Origin: Cellulosimicrobium marinum
GTDB lineage: Bacteria > Actinomycetota > Actinomycetes > Actinomycetales > Cellulomonadaceae
NCBI RefSeq assembly: GCF_020551945.1
Contig: NZ_JAJBZH010000004.1
Coordinates: 321,353-385,352, forward strand
Length of the DNA stretch: 64,000 nt
Direction of reading: 5' to 3'
Shown: positions 27,191 through 32,683 of the stretch, one piece after another
Layout of the letters: each line of letters opens with the position of its first letter
Numbering within the stretch: the stretch's first letter is position 1
The notes under the pieces: model-generated
Seen by the model: only the letters and a program-made list of their open reading frames with translations
The model's database searches: none
What the model was told of the DNA's origin: nothing
Position numbers and translations under genes: made by a program

Positions 27191-29725
27191 TCAGTCGACG
27201 GCGAGCGCCGCCACCGGCGACGTCCGGGCCGCCGCACGACCCGGCACCACCGACGCGAGCAGGCCCGCGCCGAGGGCCACCACGAGGACCACCGCGACGT
27301 CGCGCCACGGCACCGCGAACGCCACGTCGCCCATGAGGCTCAGGGCCGTCGCGGCACCCGCCCAGCCGTACACGACGCCCAGCGCCACGCCGAGCAGCGC
27401 CCCGACGCCCGCGATGAGCATGCCCTCGACGGCCAGCATCCAGCGCAGCCGACGCCGGCTCAGACCGATCGCGCGCAGCGTCGCCGACTCACGCCGCCGC
27501 TCGATCACCGACAGCGACAGCGTGTTCGCCACGCCGATGAGCGCGATGACGACCGCGACCGCGAGCAGCCCCACGACCACGGCGAGCATCGTGTCCACGA
27601 CGCTCTGCATCGCCGCGCGCTCCACGACGGCGCCCACGACCTCGACCGGGGCGTCCGCCTCGGACACCGCGTCCTGGATGCCCGCGACGACCTCCGCGTC
27701 CGACGGGTCGTCGACCGAGACCCACAGCCCGGTCGTCGCGGCGTCCGGGTCCAGGGTGCGCGCGTCGGCCGCCGTGAGGAGGAACACGCCCGACGCGCCC
27801 CCGACGACCTCCACGTCCAGCGTCGTCCCGGCGTCGGTCGTCAGGGTCGTCGTGGCGCCGTCGCTCAGGCCCCAGACGTCGAGCTGGTCCTGCGGCGCGA
27901 CCAGCGTCCCCGGCCCGAACGCGCCCTCCACCCCCAGGGTCGCGGACGACCGCACCACCGCCGCCGCCTCCGCGGGGTCCACCGCGGTGATCGGCGGCGA
28001 CGAGCCGTCGGGCAGGGTCGCGTACACCTCCGACGTCGGCGCGACCCGCGCGACGCCGTCCACACCCTCCACGAGGTCCGTCGTGCTCGACGCGACCGTC
28101 CCGTCCACGCCGCTGCCGAGGACCACGACGTCGACCGGGTACTGGTCGTCCAGCGCCGCGCCGAGGCTCGTGCGGGCGCTCGCGGCCCCCGTCGACATCA
28201 TGGCGACGAGCGTGACGCCGATGAGCAAGGCGGTGCTCGTCGCGGTGGTGCGCCGCGGGTTGCGCAGCGTGTTCGCGGCGGCGAGCCGCGCCGTCGGGCC
28301 CGTGCGGGCGAGGAGGCGGCCGACGAGCGCGACGACGGCGGGCAGCCAGAACACGGCACCGACGAGGATCCCGACGAACGACACCGTGCCCCCCACCACC
28401 CCGGCGAGGAGGCCGACGTCGGGCGCGCCGTTCGCCCCGAGCACCACGCCGCCCGCGAGGAGCGCGAAGCCGACCACGGTGAGCAGCACCGCGGCGACGA
28501 GCCGGACGCGACCCGCCCCGGTGCCGACGCGCGGCGCGTCGGCGGGGCGCAGGGCCTCCAGGGGGGAGACGCGGGTCGCCGCGCGGGCCGGCGCGAGCGA
28601 GGCGACGACCGTGACGAGCGTCCCGACGACCAGCGGTGCGAGGACGACCGCGGGGGTCAGGGACACCGTGGCGGGCAGCGGGACCCCGAGGTCCGCGCCG
28701 CGGCCGACCGTCAGGGCCAGCTGGACGAGCCCGGTGCCGACGAGCAGGCCGGCGAGGGAGGAGAGCAGCCCGAGGATCGTCGCCTCCGTGAGCACGGAGC
28801 GGGCGAGCTGGCCACGGTTCGCGCCGACCGCGCGCAGCAGCGCGAGGGTGCGGGTGCGCTGCGCGACGAGCACCTGGAACGTGTTCGCGATGACGAGCGC
28901 CGCGACGACGAGCGCGACCGCCGCGAACGCGAGGATCACGTACGTGAAGACCTGCTCGCCGCCGGTGTGCGCGGCGGCGAGGTCCTGGGCGTACTCGTCG
29001 GGCGTGCGCACGAGGCCGCCCTCGCCCGCCGAGTCGAGCACGGCCGCCCGCACGCCCTCGAGGTCCGCGCCGTCCGCGAGCGCCACCATGACGGCCGCGA
29101 CGGAACGGTCCTCCCCGGCCTCCAGCGCCCACGCCTCGGCGTCCTGCGGCGCGACGACGGCCGCCCCGCCCATCTGCGCGAACGCCCCGTACGGGTCGTC
29201 GGTGATCCCGACGACGGTCAGCGTGTCCCGCAGCTCCTGCGGCTCGACGTCCTCGTCCGACGACCAGACGTAGCGCAGGTTCGTCACGTCGTCGCCCACG
29301 CCGACGCCGAGGCGCTCGGCGACGTCCTGCGGCAGCGCGACCTGGCCCGCCGCCGACGGCAGCGCACCCTCCACGACGTCGAGCGGGTCGAACCGGGGGT
29401 CGGACGGCGTGGGGACGGCCATCTGGTAGACGGTCCGCCGACCCACCTCCAGGGCCACGGACGTGCTGCGGACCGGCTCGACCGCGTCGACGCCGTCGAG
29501 CGCCGCGAGGTCGTCCACCTCGAGCGGCGTGTACGACCGCTCGCCGCCGACGACGAGGTCCGCGTCGGCGAAGCGCGCCGCGATGGCGTCGTTCGTCGAA
29601 CGGGTGAGGACACCGCCCGCGAGCAGCGTCGCCGCGACGAACGCCGTGCCGATGAGGACCGCGACGCCGGCCGCGGCCAGCCGTCCGGTGCTGCGGCGCA
29701 TCTGCGCCAGGGTGAGCCGCAGCAT
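27191..29725 (-). CDS. ABC transporter permease, FtsX/MacB-like
   Basis: An 844-residue permease with two FtsX-type halves. After an N-terminal helix (LAAAGVAVLIGTAFVAATLLAGG) comes a large extracytoplasmic domain, then three helices (TYVILAFAAVALVVAALVIANTF, the segment GLLSSLAGLLVGTGLVQLAL, and a third), two central helices, a second extracytoplasmic domain with a family sequence AAANTLRNPRRTTATSTALLIG, and the C-terminal FtsX block (ALIGVANTLSLSVIERRRESATLRAIGLSRRRLR). This is the lone-permease layout of actinobacterial lipoprotein or peptide exporters. The start overlaps the ATPase stop (TGATG), so both are translated together. Substrate unknown. Confidence 0.92.
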   Translation of the reverse strand: MLRLTLAQMRRSTGRLAAAGVAVLIGTAFVAATLLAGGVLTRSTNDAIAARFADADLVVGGERSYTPLEVDDLAALDGVDAVEPVRSTSVALEVGRRTVYQMAVPTPSDPRFDPLDVVEGALPSAAGQVALPQDVAERLGVGVGDDVTNLRYVWSSDEDVEPQELRDTLTVVGITDDPYGAFAQMGGAAVVAPQDAEAWALEAGEDRSVAAVMVALADGADLEGVRAAVLDSAGEGGLVRTPDEYAQDLAAAHTGGEQVFTYVILAFAAVALVVAALVIANTFQVLVAQRTRTLALLRAVGANRGQLARSVLTEATILGLLSSLAGLLVGTGLVQLALTVGRGADLGVPLPATVSLTPAVVLAPLVVGTLVTVVASLAPARAATRVSPLEALRPADAPRVGTGAGRVRLVAAVLLTVVGFALLAGGVVLGANGAPDVGLLAGVVGGTVSFVGILVGAVFWLPAVVALVGRLLARTGPTARLAAANTLRNPRRTTATSTALLIGVTLVAMMSTGAASARTSLGAALDDQYPVDVVVLGSGVDGTVASSTTDLVEGVDGVARVAPTSEVYATLPDGSSPPITAVDPAEAAAVVRSSATLGVEGAFGPGTLVAPQDQLDVWGLSDGATTTLTTDAGTTLDVEVVGGASGVFLLTAADARTLDPDAATTGLWVSVDDPSDAEVVAGIQDAVSEADAPVEVVGAVVERAAMQSVVDTMLAVVVGLLAVAVVIALIGVANTLSLSVIERRRESATLRAIGLSRRRLRWMLAVEGMLIAGVGALLGVALGVVYGWAGAATALSLMGDVAFAVPWRDVAVVLVVALGAGLLASVVPGRAAARTSPVAALAVD

Positions 29726-30546
29726 CAGGCGCGCACCGCCTCGTCGTCGGACAGCTCGAGAGAGCGCAGCGCGTCGAGGCCGGCGAGCACCGCCTCCGGC
29801 GTCGGGTCGGCGATGTCGCCCGCGATGCGCCCGTCCGCGATGAGGACCACGCGGTCGGCGTACGCGGCGGCCGTCGGGTCGTGCGTGACCATGATGACGG
29901 TCCGGCCGAGCTCGCGGACGCTGCGGCGCAGGAAGCTCAGCACCTCGGCGCCGGAGCGGGAATCGAGGTTGCCCGTCGGCTCGTCGGCGAACACGACCTC
30001 GGGGGCCGCGATGAGCGCGCGGGCGATGGCGACGCGCTGCTGCTGCCCGCCCGACAGCTCGCTCGGACGGTGGCTCAGGCGCGCCTGCAGGCCGAGGGTG
30101 TGCACGAGCGTGCCGAACCACTCCCGGTCGACCGTCCCGCCCGCGAGCTCCACGGGCAGGGCGATGTTCTGCTCGGCCGTGAACATCGGCAGGAGGTTGA
30201 ACGACTGGAACACGAACCCGACGCGGTCCCTCCGCAGCGCCGTGAGCTCGTTGTCGTCGAGCGCCGTCACGTCGGTGTCGCCGAGGAACGCGTGCCCGCC
30301 CGTCGCCGAGTCGAGGCCGGCGAGCAGGTGCATGAGCGTCGACTTGCCGGAGCCCGACGGTCCCATGATCGCGGTGAAGTGCCCGCGCTCGAAGTCGACG
30401 TCGACGCCGTCGAGCGCGTGCACCGCGGCCTCGCCGCTGCCGTACGTCTTGCGCAGCGCCCGGGCGCGGACCGCGGGCGGCCCCGCCGTCGCGGGGGCGC
30501 CGCCGTCGGGGGCGGGGTGTGCGGGTCGGTACACGGTCGTGTCCAC
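29725..30546 (-). CDS. ABC transporter ATP-binding protein (MacB/LolD type)
   Basis: A 273-residue ATPase partner of the FtsX-like permease. Motifs in order: Walker A GPSGSGKST, Q-loop FVFQSFNLLPMFTAEQN, signature LSGGQQQRVAIARAL, Walker B VVFADEPTGNLD, and the H-loop VTHDPTAA. The SFNLLP and EPTGNLD forms are typical of the MacB/LolD/FtsE group. GTG 30546 has AGGAGA 8 nt upstream; the upstream frame to 30636 is rejected for lack of a site. Upstream, 398 bp without a gene separate it from the divergent DUF559 gene. Confidence 0.93.
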   Translation of the reverse strand: MDTTVYRPAHPAPDGGAPATAGPPAVRARALRKTYGSGEAAVHALDGVDVDFERGHFTAIMGPSGSGKSTLMHLLAGLDSATGGHAFLGDTDVTALDDNELTALRRDRVGFVFQSFNLLPMFTAEQNIALPVELAGGTVDREWFGTLVHTLGLQARLSHRPSELSGGQQQRVAIARALIAAPEVVFADEPTGNLDSRSGAEVLSFLRRSVRELGRTVIMVTHDPTAAAYADRVVLIADGRIAGDIADPTPEAVLAGLDALRSLELSDDEAVRA

Positions 30547-30722: not shown

Positions 30723-30770
30723 ACCTGTCAGCGCCCGGTCGGTCCCGGGGTCGGTGGGCTGCTGACAGGT
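30723..30770. repeat. 48-bp palindrome-ended repeat, copy A
   Basis: Starts ACCTGTCAGC and ends GCTGACAGGT, perfect 10-bp inverted ends around a 28-bp GC-rich middle containing GGTCCCGGGGTC. It aligns without gaps to copies B and C. Confidence 0.85.
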
Positions 30771-30783
30771 CCGGACGCGTGCG

Positions 30784-30831
30784 GGTCGTCAGCGCCTCAC
30801 GGGTCCCGGGTCCGGTGGGGCGCTGACAGCT
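30784..30831. repeat. 48-bp palindrome-ended repeat, copy B
   Basis: Same length as copy A and identical at 34 of 48 positions, including the inner GTCAGCGCC, the central TCCCGGG, GGTGGG and the final GCTGACAG. The extreme left end has diverged. Its inner ends GTCAGCGCC and GGCGCTGAC are perfectly complementary. Confidence 0.8.
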
Positions 30832-30944
30832 TCCGGCGCCCGACGGCGCGTCGTCGCCGTCCCCAGGCCCGGTTCCGGCGGGCTCGTCCACAGGGTCGCG
30901 GCCCGGGGTGGGAGACCGTGCCCGGGGAACGGCAGGGTCGGCGC

Positions 30945-31889
30945 ATGAGCGGAGGAGCAGGGTTCCTGGACACGGTCGCCGGGCTGCGGGACGTCGCGGC
31001 GCGACAGTGCGGCGTGGTCGCGCGGTCGCAGCTGACGCGGCTCGGGGTGACGTCCGACGCCGTCGACCACCAGGTCCGCGCGCGACGGTGGCGTCGCACG
31101 AGTCGCGACGTCGTCGTGCTGCACCGCGGGCCGCTCACCCGCGCCGCACGCTGCTGGGTCGCGGTGCTCGGCGCCCCGGCGGGTGCCGCGCTCGGCGCGT
31201 GGACCGCGCTCGAGCTGCGCGGGCTCACCGGGTGGGACCGCGAGCCGCTGCACGTCGTGATCGCGCGCGGACAGCGGGCGGACCGCCACCCGTGGCTCGT
31301 CGTGCACGAGTCGCGACGTCCCGCGACCGGCGACGTCGGTGTCGTCGCGGGGCTGCCCGTGCACGACGTCGCGCGTGCAGCGGTCGACGCCGCGGCGTGG
31401 CAGCCGTCGTGGCGGACGGCGTCGGGGCTCGTCGCGGCGGTCGTGCAGCAGCGGCTCGCGACCCCGGCCGTGCTGCTCGCGAAGCTCGACGAGGTCGGTG
31501 CGGTGCGGCACCGGGCGACGGTCCGGCTCGCGCTCGCCGACATCGCGGGCGGTGCGGACTCGCTCGCCGAGATCGACTTCGCCCGGCTCTGCCGGCGGGC
31601 GGGTCTGCCCGAGCCGGCGCGGCAGTCCCGCCGCCGCGACTCGACCGGTCGCTGGCGCTACCTCGACGTCGAGTGGCGGGCGCGCGGGCGCCGTCTCGTC
31701 GTGGAGGTCGACGGCGTGGGGCACCTGGAGAGCCGTCGGTGGTACGACGACCTCCTGCGCGACGCCGAGCTCGGCGCGGACACGCGCACGGTGCGCCTGA
31801 GGCTCCCGGCGATGGCGGCGAGGCGTGAGCCGGAGCGGGTGCTCGCCGTCGTGCACCGTCACCTCGCGGACCTGATGCTCGCCGCGTGA
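30945..31889 (+). CDS. DUF559 / AbiEi-antitoxin-like protein with Vsr-type nuclease fold
   Basis: A 314-residue protein. Residues about 8-45 form a winged-helix region like the AbiEi antitoxin N-terminal domain (GLRDVAARQCGVVARSQLTRLGVTSDAVDHQVRARRWRR). The C-terminus (about 205-305) matches DUF559, a Vsr/PD-(D/E)XK-like fold: DSLAEIDFARLCRRAG, then YLDVEWRARGRRLVVEVDGVGHLESRRWYDDLLRDAEL. The visible Glu in SLAEIDF, Asp in YLDVEW and Glu-Val-Asp in VVEVDG could form an active site. No AbiEii toxin gene is adjacent, so a type IV toxin-antitoxin pair is not supported. Three copies of a 48-bp repeat bracket the gene. ATG at 30945 has no strong ribosome site. Confidence 0.75.
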   Translation: MSGGAGFLDTVAGLRDVAARQCGVVARSQLTRLGVTSDAVDHQVRARRWRRTSRDVVVLHRGPLTRAARCWVAVLGAPAGAALGAWTALELRGLTGWDREPLHVVIARGQRADRHPWLVVHESRRPATGDVGVVAGLPVHDVARAAVDAAAWQPSWRTASGLVAAVVQQRLATPAVLLAKLDEVGAVRHRATVRLALADIAGGADSLAEIDFARLCRRAGLPEPARQSRRRDSTGRWRYLDVEWRARGRRLVVEVDGVGHLESRRWYDDLLRDAELGADTRTVRLRLPAMAARREPERVLAVVHRHLADLMLAA

Positions 31890-31900
31890 GCCCGGCGGCG

Positions 31901-31948
31901 ACCTGTCAGCACCTCACCGACCTCAGGGCCCGTGGGCTGCTGACAGCT
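31901..31948. repeat. 48-bp palindrome-ended repeat, copy C
   Basis: Begins 12 bp after the DUF559 stop with ACCTGTCAGC and ends GCTGACAGCT, the same length and ends as A and B, with CCTCAC in the left arm as in B. It lies between convergent genes and could also work as a transcription terminator, since CTGTCAGC pairs with GCTGACAG. Confidence 0.85.
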
Positions 31949-31969: not shown

Positions 31970-32683
31970 TCAGGACCCCGGACGAACCAGCCCGGTCTCG
32001 TAGGCCGTGACGACGGCCTGCACGCGGTCGCGCGCGCCGAGCTTCGCGAGGATGCGCCCCACGTGGGTCTTCACGGTCGCCTCGGCGACGAACAGGTCGG
32101 TCGCGACCTCCGTGTTCGAGCGCCCGCGGGCCATGAGCACGAGGACCTCGCGCTCGCGCTCGGTGAGCCCGGCGACGGCCGCGTGCGCGGGGGAGTCCGC
32201 CGCCTGCTCGGCGGGCAGGGCGGTGACGAGGTGCTCGAGGAGCCGCCGGGTCGACGACGGCGCGATGACGGCGTCGCCGCGGTGCACGGTGCGGATCGCG
32301 GCGAGCATCTCCTCGGGCGGCGCGTCCTTGAGCAGGAACCCGCTCGCGCCGGAACGGATGGCCTCGAGCACGTACTCGTCGAGGTCGAACGTCGTGAGGA
32401 CGATGACGCGCGGCACGTGCGCCGCACCGTCCGTCCCCGCCGTGAGCCGCGCGGTCGCCTGCAGGCCGTCGAGGTTCGGCATGCGCACGTCCATGAGGAC
32501 GACGTCGACCGGGTGGTCCGCGAGCAGGCGCAGGGCCTGCACGCCGTCCCCGGCCTCGACGACGACCTGGAGGTCGGGCTGGGAGTCGATGACCATGCGG
32601 AACCCGGCGCGCACGAGCTGCTGGTCGTCGACGAGTGCGACCCGGACGGGGACGTCGGAGGGGAGGGGGGTGTCGGCGGTCAT
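31970..32683 (-). CDS. NarL/LuxR-family response regulator
   Basis: A 237-residue two-component regulator. The receiver domain has the acidic pair VALVDDQQ, phosphoacceptor Asp65 in DVVLMDVRMPNLDG, Thr in VIVLTTFD and Lys in FLLKDAP. The C-terminal HTH is the LuxR type, LTEREREVLVLMARGRSNTE followed by VKTHVGRILAKLG. Its ATG overlaps the stop of the upstream kinase gene, so the pair is translationally coupled. Target genes are unknown; this class often controls an adjacent ABC exporter, and the MacB-like transporter nearby is a candidate. Confidence 0.93.
   Translation of the reverse strand: MTADTPLPSDVPVRVALVDDQQLVRAGFRMVIDSQPDLQVVVEAGDGVQALRLLADHPVDVVLMDVRMPNLDGLQATARLTAGTDGAAHVPRVIVLTTFDLDEYVLEAIRSGASGFLLKDAPPEEMLAAIRTVHRGDAVIAPSSTRRLLEHLVTALPAEQAADSPAHAAVAGLTEREREVLVLMARGRSNTEVATDLFVAEATVKTHVGRILAKLGARDRVQAVVTAYETGLVRPGS

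Follow-up and report, generated by a model that had tools for sequence, protein, structure and literature searches.

Locus and palindromic repeats

The stretch of DNA analysed here, referred to as the window, comprises 64,000 nucleotides of the Cellulosimicrobium marinum genome (G000; 3.83 Mb in 14 contigs; contig C9, positions 321353 to 385352), and the system in question is the gene of a putative nuclease of a little-studied kind, P0001, together with the palindromic repeats that bracket it. The gene (30945..31889, + strand) encodes 314 amino acids with an AbiEi-like N-terminal part and a DUF559/Vsr-like nuclease-type C-terminal domain. Upstream of it, palindrome copies A (30726..30767) and B (30787..30828) lie in tandem, parted by a 19-bp spacer (30768..30786) that sets their starts 61 bp apart, as is typical of most pairs elsewhere, while copy C (31904..31945) lies directly past the stop codon; no strand is assigned to any of these repeat features. 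The evidence gathered on this pair suggests that many actinobacteria harbour an enzyme-and-repeat system not described before.

A previous sequence-only reading of the window had described three copies of exactly 48 bp with conserved ends. The 48-mers were located at 30723-30770, 30784-30831 and 31901-31948, and both the 61-bp period from A to B and the difference of these two copies at 14 of 48 positions were confirmed (A/C differ at 12, B/C at 14). The conserved length and ends were borne out in part: the three palindromes are real, but copy B starts with TCGTCAGC and not CTGTCAGC, its left end being CGTCAG in place of TGTCAG, so that the left end common to all three reaches outward only as far as GTCAGC. 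A length of 42 bp (TGTCAG-N30-CTGACA), within a slightly longer symmetric context, describes the conserved unit better, and the interior of this unit is imperfectly palindromic. That the window holds no other copy proved correct, as a model built on the 40-bp core sequence retrieved the three copies at E < 1e-8 and its next match at E 0.1. Similarly, GTCAGC-N28-GCTGAC occurs three times in the window against 0.05 per 64 kb expected from first-order Markov windows. In the 1.9 kb around the gene Rfam gave zero matches up to E 1, and a search of the region for terminator-like sites returned none.

Features of the P0001 protein

Eight residues of P0001 (E209, D211, D241, E254, D256, H260, D269 and R272; codons within 31569..31760, + strand) are invariant in all 29 aligned proteins of the host's taxonomic family, the Cellulomonadaceae, and are candidates for the active site. 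This conservation is claimed for those 29 proteins only; a regular expression of the catalytic motif, probably too strict, matched 42 of 58 rows of a wider set, the 16 non-matches being three apparently wrong-frame rows (L279, L286, L291) and 13 other rows from the class. DUF559 (PF04480) scores 14.4 bits on P0001, below the curated cut-off of 20.6, and E 0.01 is reached by 4 of the 29 family members; the PADLOC AbiEi models are matched by all 29. Scans of the family with Pfam, NCBIfam and PADLOC returned AbiEi and DUF559 only, with no match to a HuH Y1 tyrosine transposase, and NCBIfam assigns no family to these proteins. Weak fold matches were obtained to the endonuclease-like 3hrl and the homing endonuclease I-Bth0305I, and for the N-terminus to AbiEi, none of them at a Foldseek E of 0.001 or below; a profile search of PDB sequences gave no credible match. 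The plasmid collection held zero relatives of P0001 at E 1e-10, and the viral contigs no confirmed one.

Association of the gene with palindromes

A single-sequence search at E 1e-20 or better placed the gene in 31 of 221 family genomes, amounting to 34 loci with three second copies included. A profile search at 1e-12, which scored the top ten candidates of each genome, gave 53 genomes, and the extra 22 (E between 1e-12 and 1e-26) are counted here as gene-less. Bracketing was defined as a 42-bp palindrome with six perfect outer pairs and at least 13 of 21 pairs in total, within about 450 bp. By this measure, palindromes stand on both sides of 29 of the 34 loci and on at least one side of 32, against 10 and 109 of 370 predicted genes in the repeat-rich genome G150, 2 and 9 of the 33 predicted genes in the window, and 0.2% and 7.5% with shuffled flanks. 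The frameshifted or truncated genes at L072, L080, L083, L084 and L085 are part of these flank counts and were kept out of alignment A2 and the tree. Family genes at L042, L044, L045, L083 and L084 appear frameshifted or truncated with repeats still present in their genomes.

The arrangement extends to the class, where a relative at E 1e-25 or better occurs in 143 of 394 sampled genomes and 61 of 138 genera (the window's genome included). When the 29 other genomes with the best scores were each examined at a single locus, palindromes were found on both sides in 16 cases and on at least one side in 23, with end hexamers including TGTCAG, CGTCCG, CGTCAT, CGTCCT, AGTCAG and CGTGTG. When at least 14 or at least 15 pairs were demanded, two-sided cases fell to 24 and 19 among the 34 family loci, to 13 and 9 among the 29 of the class set and to 2 and 1 among the 370 controls, and over the palindrome lengths tried they peaked at 40 and 42 bp in the family and at 42 bp in the class set. 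The placement of a DUF559-type gene among palindromes, first noticed at this single locus, is thus family-wide and recurs in the class. A record labelled 'Bacteriophage sp.', from human faeces and unverified, encodes a protein 38% identical, with GGTGAT-ended 42-bp palindromes on both sides. Upstream of the gene at L293, GGCGGG...CCCGCC palindromes form an array in which several are spaced by about 60 bp.

The genome-wide number of copies also follows the presence of the gene. At least six copies of TGTCAG-N30-CTGACA are found in all 22 gene-bearing genomes outside genus g4 and in 17 of 190 gene-less genomes, with a threshold of six that was chosen after the counts were known; a reversed-pattern control was zero in all listed genomes except one. 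Fisher's test gives 4e-20 with the gene-less side taken as 17 of 199, nine g4 genomes included, and with kinship uncorrected. These nine gene-bearing g4 genomes hold zero TGTCAG-type copies and carry another end type, CGTCCG-N30-CGGACG, in 23 to 88 copies, against a median of 11 in the other 72 genomes of that genus. Because of this background the CGTCCG pattern is weaker evidence than TGTCAG, and G054, G062, G080 and G096, also of g4, hold 23 or more CGTCCG copies with no strong match to the gene. As many as 200 palindrome copies occur in a single genome. In G020 and G021 (genus g3), where no gene was detected, the TGTCAG-N30-CTGACA repeats are nearly perfect hairpins (TGTCAGAAGCTCCCCGG type).

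Palindrome type and protein lineage

The pairing of gene and repeat, proposed from the window alone, is strengthened by the observation that palindrome type follows the protein. Genomes G124, G150 and G179 carry two family genes each, with different palindromes beside each paralog; the two types of G179 are TGTCAG and CGTCCG, and the second gene of G124 has its palindrome on the downstream side only. G150 was sampled in 60 stretches (L162-L221; 36% of the genome), and all 36 copies recovered are clearly nearer to the flanks of one of the two paralogs, 14 falling to one and 22 to its counterpart, by at least 10 of 42 positions. In a 55-protein tree with 50 labelled loci, built without the wrong-frame rows L279, L286 and L291, the end hexamer requires 8 changes, whereas shuffled labels require 22.9 on average and at least 19 in 200 shuffles.

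Dispersed copies and the nature of the site

G000 carries 26 palindrome copies and one such gene, and 23 of the copies lie away from it, contrary to the expectation of the sequence-only reading that copies might cluster beside DUF559 genes. Searching for GTCAGC and GCTGAC with 22-40 nt between them gave 32 matches per strand, 26 of which have exactly 28 nt, against 5 in the control; with the spacer fixed at 28 nt, G000 gave 26 matches and the control zero. A model built from the sequence of the 26 copies re-finds them (51 strand hits to 21.4 bits) and, among the best 150 candidates scored, yields only partial hits from 18.9 bits down, so that copies with damaged GTCAGC/GCTGAC ends are probably few or absent in this genome.

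The arms of the palindrome vary independently. Over the 18 possible pairs in the 26 copies, 80.3% of cells are paired against 81.0% with one arm shuffled, and covariation tests showed no excess pairing in the interiors of G000, G110 and G125 (z -0.93 to 0.15) or in the two repeat types of G150 (z 1.60 and -0.95). Same-type neighbours within 150 bp lie 61-63 bp apart in 49 of 64 pairs, the other 15 spacings being 54, 59, 60 (2), 73 (2), 74, 83, 85 (2), 93, 112, 130, 141 and 145 bp. At 10.5 bp per turn, 42 bp corresponds to four helical turns and 63 bp to six, and a four-turn site with six-turn spacing would suit a protein reading a single face of the duplex. Since the arms do not covary and tandem copies are mostly about six turns apart, the site takes the form of duplex DNA and not of a hairpin. 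The selection on a DNA or RNA structure suggested from the window alone does not hold in the form of a hairpin, and the hairpin or terminator explanation was rejected on this lack of covariation and on the absence of terminator-like sites in the region.

Concerted evolution, copy turnover and gene loss

Five sites with a copy in G000 also hold seven copies in G110, one of these sites being localised no more closely than to some 240 bp. At the shared sites the flanks are 73-88% identical and the interiors agree at 12-15 of 28 positions, and each copy is assigned to the profile of its own genome (leave-one-out 26/26 and 13/13). G000 and G125 have nearly a single consensus and are hardly separable (16/26 and 16/25). 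Two further places hold a copy in both G125 and G110 and none in G000, and one of these copies lies within a 2-oxoacid dehydrogenase acyltransferase gene, in the linker that joins the lipoyl domain to the E3-binding domain. As copies are present or absent at matched sites and interiors are genome-specific, gain or loss of copies takes place between species and interiors are rewritten in concert. Judged from these comparisons, the system is a clear case of concerted evolution of repeats at fixed sites.

The gene is flanked by an ABC transporter ATPase (29725..30546, - strand), which adjoins an FtsX-like permease, and a LuxR-type response regulator (31970..32683, - strand), which adjoins a HisKA_3 kinase. 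The locus looks ancestral because this placement between the ABC transporter and the response regulator recurs in several other genera. Within the genus, 14 of 17 genomes lack the gene at this locus and have no match anywhere at 1e-12, and the empty interval measures 218-296 bp in the 12 of these 14 for which it was available. Most of these 12 loci retain a palindrome interior without the TGTCAG ends. At L132-L148, the locus in the genus, the interior left after gene loss resembles a near-perfect hairpin near the response-regulator stop and is possibly reused as a terminator.

Among the copies listed by the G000 model, both ends are exact in 23 of 26 in G000 (a set first found by its ends), 16 of 23 in G125, where the gene is incomplete through truncation, in 1 of 4 in G124 and, over ten gene-less genomes, in 7 of 31, some of these copies in G116 and G117 being shared by descent. 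This suggests that the ends decay after gene loss, and the damaged G000-type copies fit relics. A simple relic reading is opposed by the gene-less G110 and G113, which have 13 and 12 exact copies, respectively, with interiors of other types.

Proposed mechanism and alternatives

At a probability of roughly 60%, we favour the reading that P0001 is a member of a widespread actinobacterial AbiEi-DUF559 family working with its own dispersed 42-bp palindromes, which the nuclease would bind, probably cut and homogenise, in a manner resembling repetitive extragenic palindromes (REPs) and their REP-associated tyrosine transposases (RAYTs). The action of the enzyme on the palindromes, including binding, cleavage, the repair step and a benefit to the host, is what we infer from sequence comparison. 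The N-terminal winged-helix part would bind a palindrome in dimeric form, with each subunit on one 21-bp arm, and palindrome pairs about six turns apart would be bound cooperatively. The DUF559 domain would then nick or cut at or near the conserved ends, and repair templated by another palindrome would spread and homogenise the repeats through gene conversion. The same repair would fix the bracketed gene at its locus, and the whole would resemble a domesticated homing or REP/RAYT-type system run by another enzyme. In the available text of the respective sources, AbiEi antitoxins autoregulate through binding to 23-bp inverted repeats (PMC7319586) and I-Bth0305I dimerises on nearly 60 bp (PMC3943268), which together make a cutting dimer on 42 bp plausible.

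Some observations weigh against this reading. Repeats in genomes lacking the gene had been named in advance as telling against the pairing, and the 17 of 190 gene-less genomes with at least six copies do so in part: some fit relics, given the gene loss within the genus and the damaged ends, but G110, G113, G190 and G193 do not, the last two (genus g19) having 97 and 109 exact copies while the ten best candidates scored in each included no gene at E 1e-12. Moreover, shared descent alone would explain some of the fit between end hexamer and protein tree.

P0001 could instead be an AbiEi-type regulator, its flanking palindromes serving as autoregulatory operators and the dispersed copies as a regulon or titration sites, with the DUF559 domain not used as a nuclease. 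The reported autoregulation of AbiEi antitoxins, the match of every family protein to the PADLOC AbiEi models and the suitability of long two-fold sites with independent arms for a dimeric regulator are in keeping with this proposal, which we nevertheless regard as unlikely in view of palindromes directly past the stop codon and within coding regions (such as the acyltransferase linker), of up to 200 copies in one genome and of invariant nuclease-type residues.

The distribution of copies along chromosomes bears on another possibility, namely that the palindromes are chromosome-organising or replication-linked sites bridged by the protein to structure the chromosome. With numbering that starts at a dnaA-like gene, G150 shows an unbroken run of 14 sampled stretches, spanning 1.34 to 2.07 Mb, that are all free of copies, a gap opposite the dnaA end that may reflect avoidance of the terminus half; its chance is about 4.5e-4 counting events, for an interval picked after the fact. 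In G000, 25 of the 26 copies fall on three of the 14 contigs, which make up about 53% of the genome. Such an organising role is improbable even so, because the gene is missing from most relatives, 14 of the 17 genomes in the genus among them, and the sequence turns over fast between species, unlike essential organising sites.

That the nuclease gene is a passenger, and the palindromes either ordinary terminators between genes or REPs that an unlinked transposase moves, is already disfavoured and highly improbable: 26 of the 36 sampled G150 copies do lie between predicted genes (random positions, about 9-11%) and some genomes hold repeats without the gene, but 9 of the 36 are inside predicted genes, terminator-like sites and arm covariation are absent as described, two-sided bracketing is far above control and repeat type matches the paralog.

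Should the nuclease indeed maintain its own palindromes, a large family of unannotated actinobacterial nucleases would gain a function and a visible substrate, and palindromes with a dedicated enzyme would have arisen more than once, here with an unrelated enzyme and with duplex instead of hairpin recognition. The many natural pairs of enzyme and 42-bp site make specificity directly testable.

Comparison with known systems

In REP/RAYT systems, dispersed genome-specific palindromes flank an enzyme gene and enzyme and repeat co-evolve, according to the available text of PMC8266576 and PMC3733652. The present system resembles them (REPtrons and REPINs included) in its dispersed genome-specific palindromes, flanked enzyme gene, co-evolution and frequent pairs. 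It differs in that the enzyme has no HuH Y1 transposase match and in that the sites are 42-bp duplex two-fold sites whose arms do not covary, whereas REPs are single-stranded hairpins tagged GTAG. Since neither a HuH transposase match nor a hairpin is present, it does not belong to REP/RAYT, and as both enzyme and repeat fall outside that group, though the logic is alike, we consider the system categorically new. To the sequence-only reading, too, such a nuclease-repeat pair would be new, and a literature search, mostly outside subscription journals, gave no paper that links DUF559 or AbiEi-DUF559 proteins to palindromic repeats.

With regard to the AbiEi of type IV toxin-antitoxin systems (AbiE), the four scanned neighbours of P0001 (FtsX-like permease, ABC ATPase, response regulator and histidine kinase) include no AbiEii toxin, a nucleotidyltransferase, and a DUF559-like domain follows the AbiEi-like part instead. 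I-Bth0305I, an EDxHD homing endonuclease which we take to be Vsr-like, is a phage-type homing enzyme with one target, whereas here a bacterial gene goes with 6-200 dispersed palindromic sites; the concerted evolution of these sites is compatible with target cleavage and repair copying.

CGTC-tagged REPs (Di Nocera 2013), as the available text of PMC3733652 describes them, bear a CGTC/TGTC tag, form mostly head-to-head pairs, are said to be without a dedicated transposase and occur mainly in alphaproteobacteria, with 8-9 bp stems, 4-5 base loops and an unpaired tag; the word Actinobacteria is absent from the main text of that source. The present palindromes share CGTC or TGTC at their ends and the occurrence mostly in pairs, but their ends are paired across 42 bp, their arms lack covariation and no short stem-loop with an unpaired tag is formed.

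DUF559-only genes were surveyed in 14 of 35 plasmid-collection records, with unannotated gene ends placed by eye, and perfect CGTC/TGTC-tagged hairpins were found near the gene at 2 of the 14 loci under the stricter rule. Sinorhizobium meliloti pSymB (L301) has three tagged hairpins, on both sides of the DUF559 gene, with an ISRm16 transposase gene adjoining, and Neisseria gonorrhoeae has three on one side, 281 bp apart. Altogether the 14 loci, 32,007 bp in sum, contain 6 tagged hairpins compared with 1 when the tags are reversed, and 49 kb of the S. meliloti replicon contain 3. One-sided CCTC-tagged hairpins at L299, L303 and L307, seen in a looser scan, failed the stricter rule and were left uncounted. 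A partnership between DUF559 proteins and CGTC-tagged REPs may be indicated, as a thin lead and not a result. More broadly, and tentatively, DUF559-type nucleases could represent a second, unrelated repeat-maintaining lineage parallel to RAYTs, in which actinobacterial AbiEi-DUF559 genes would drive their own palindromes by cut-and-copy conversion and short DUF559 proteins would perhaps be the missing partners of the proteobacterial CGTC-tagged REPs.
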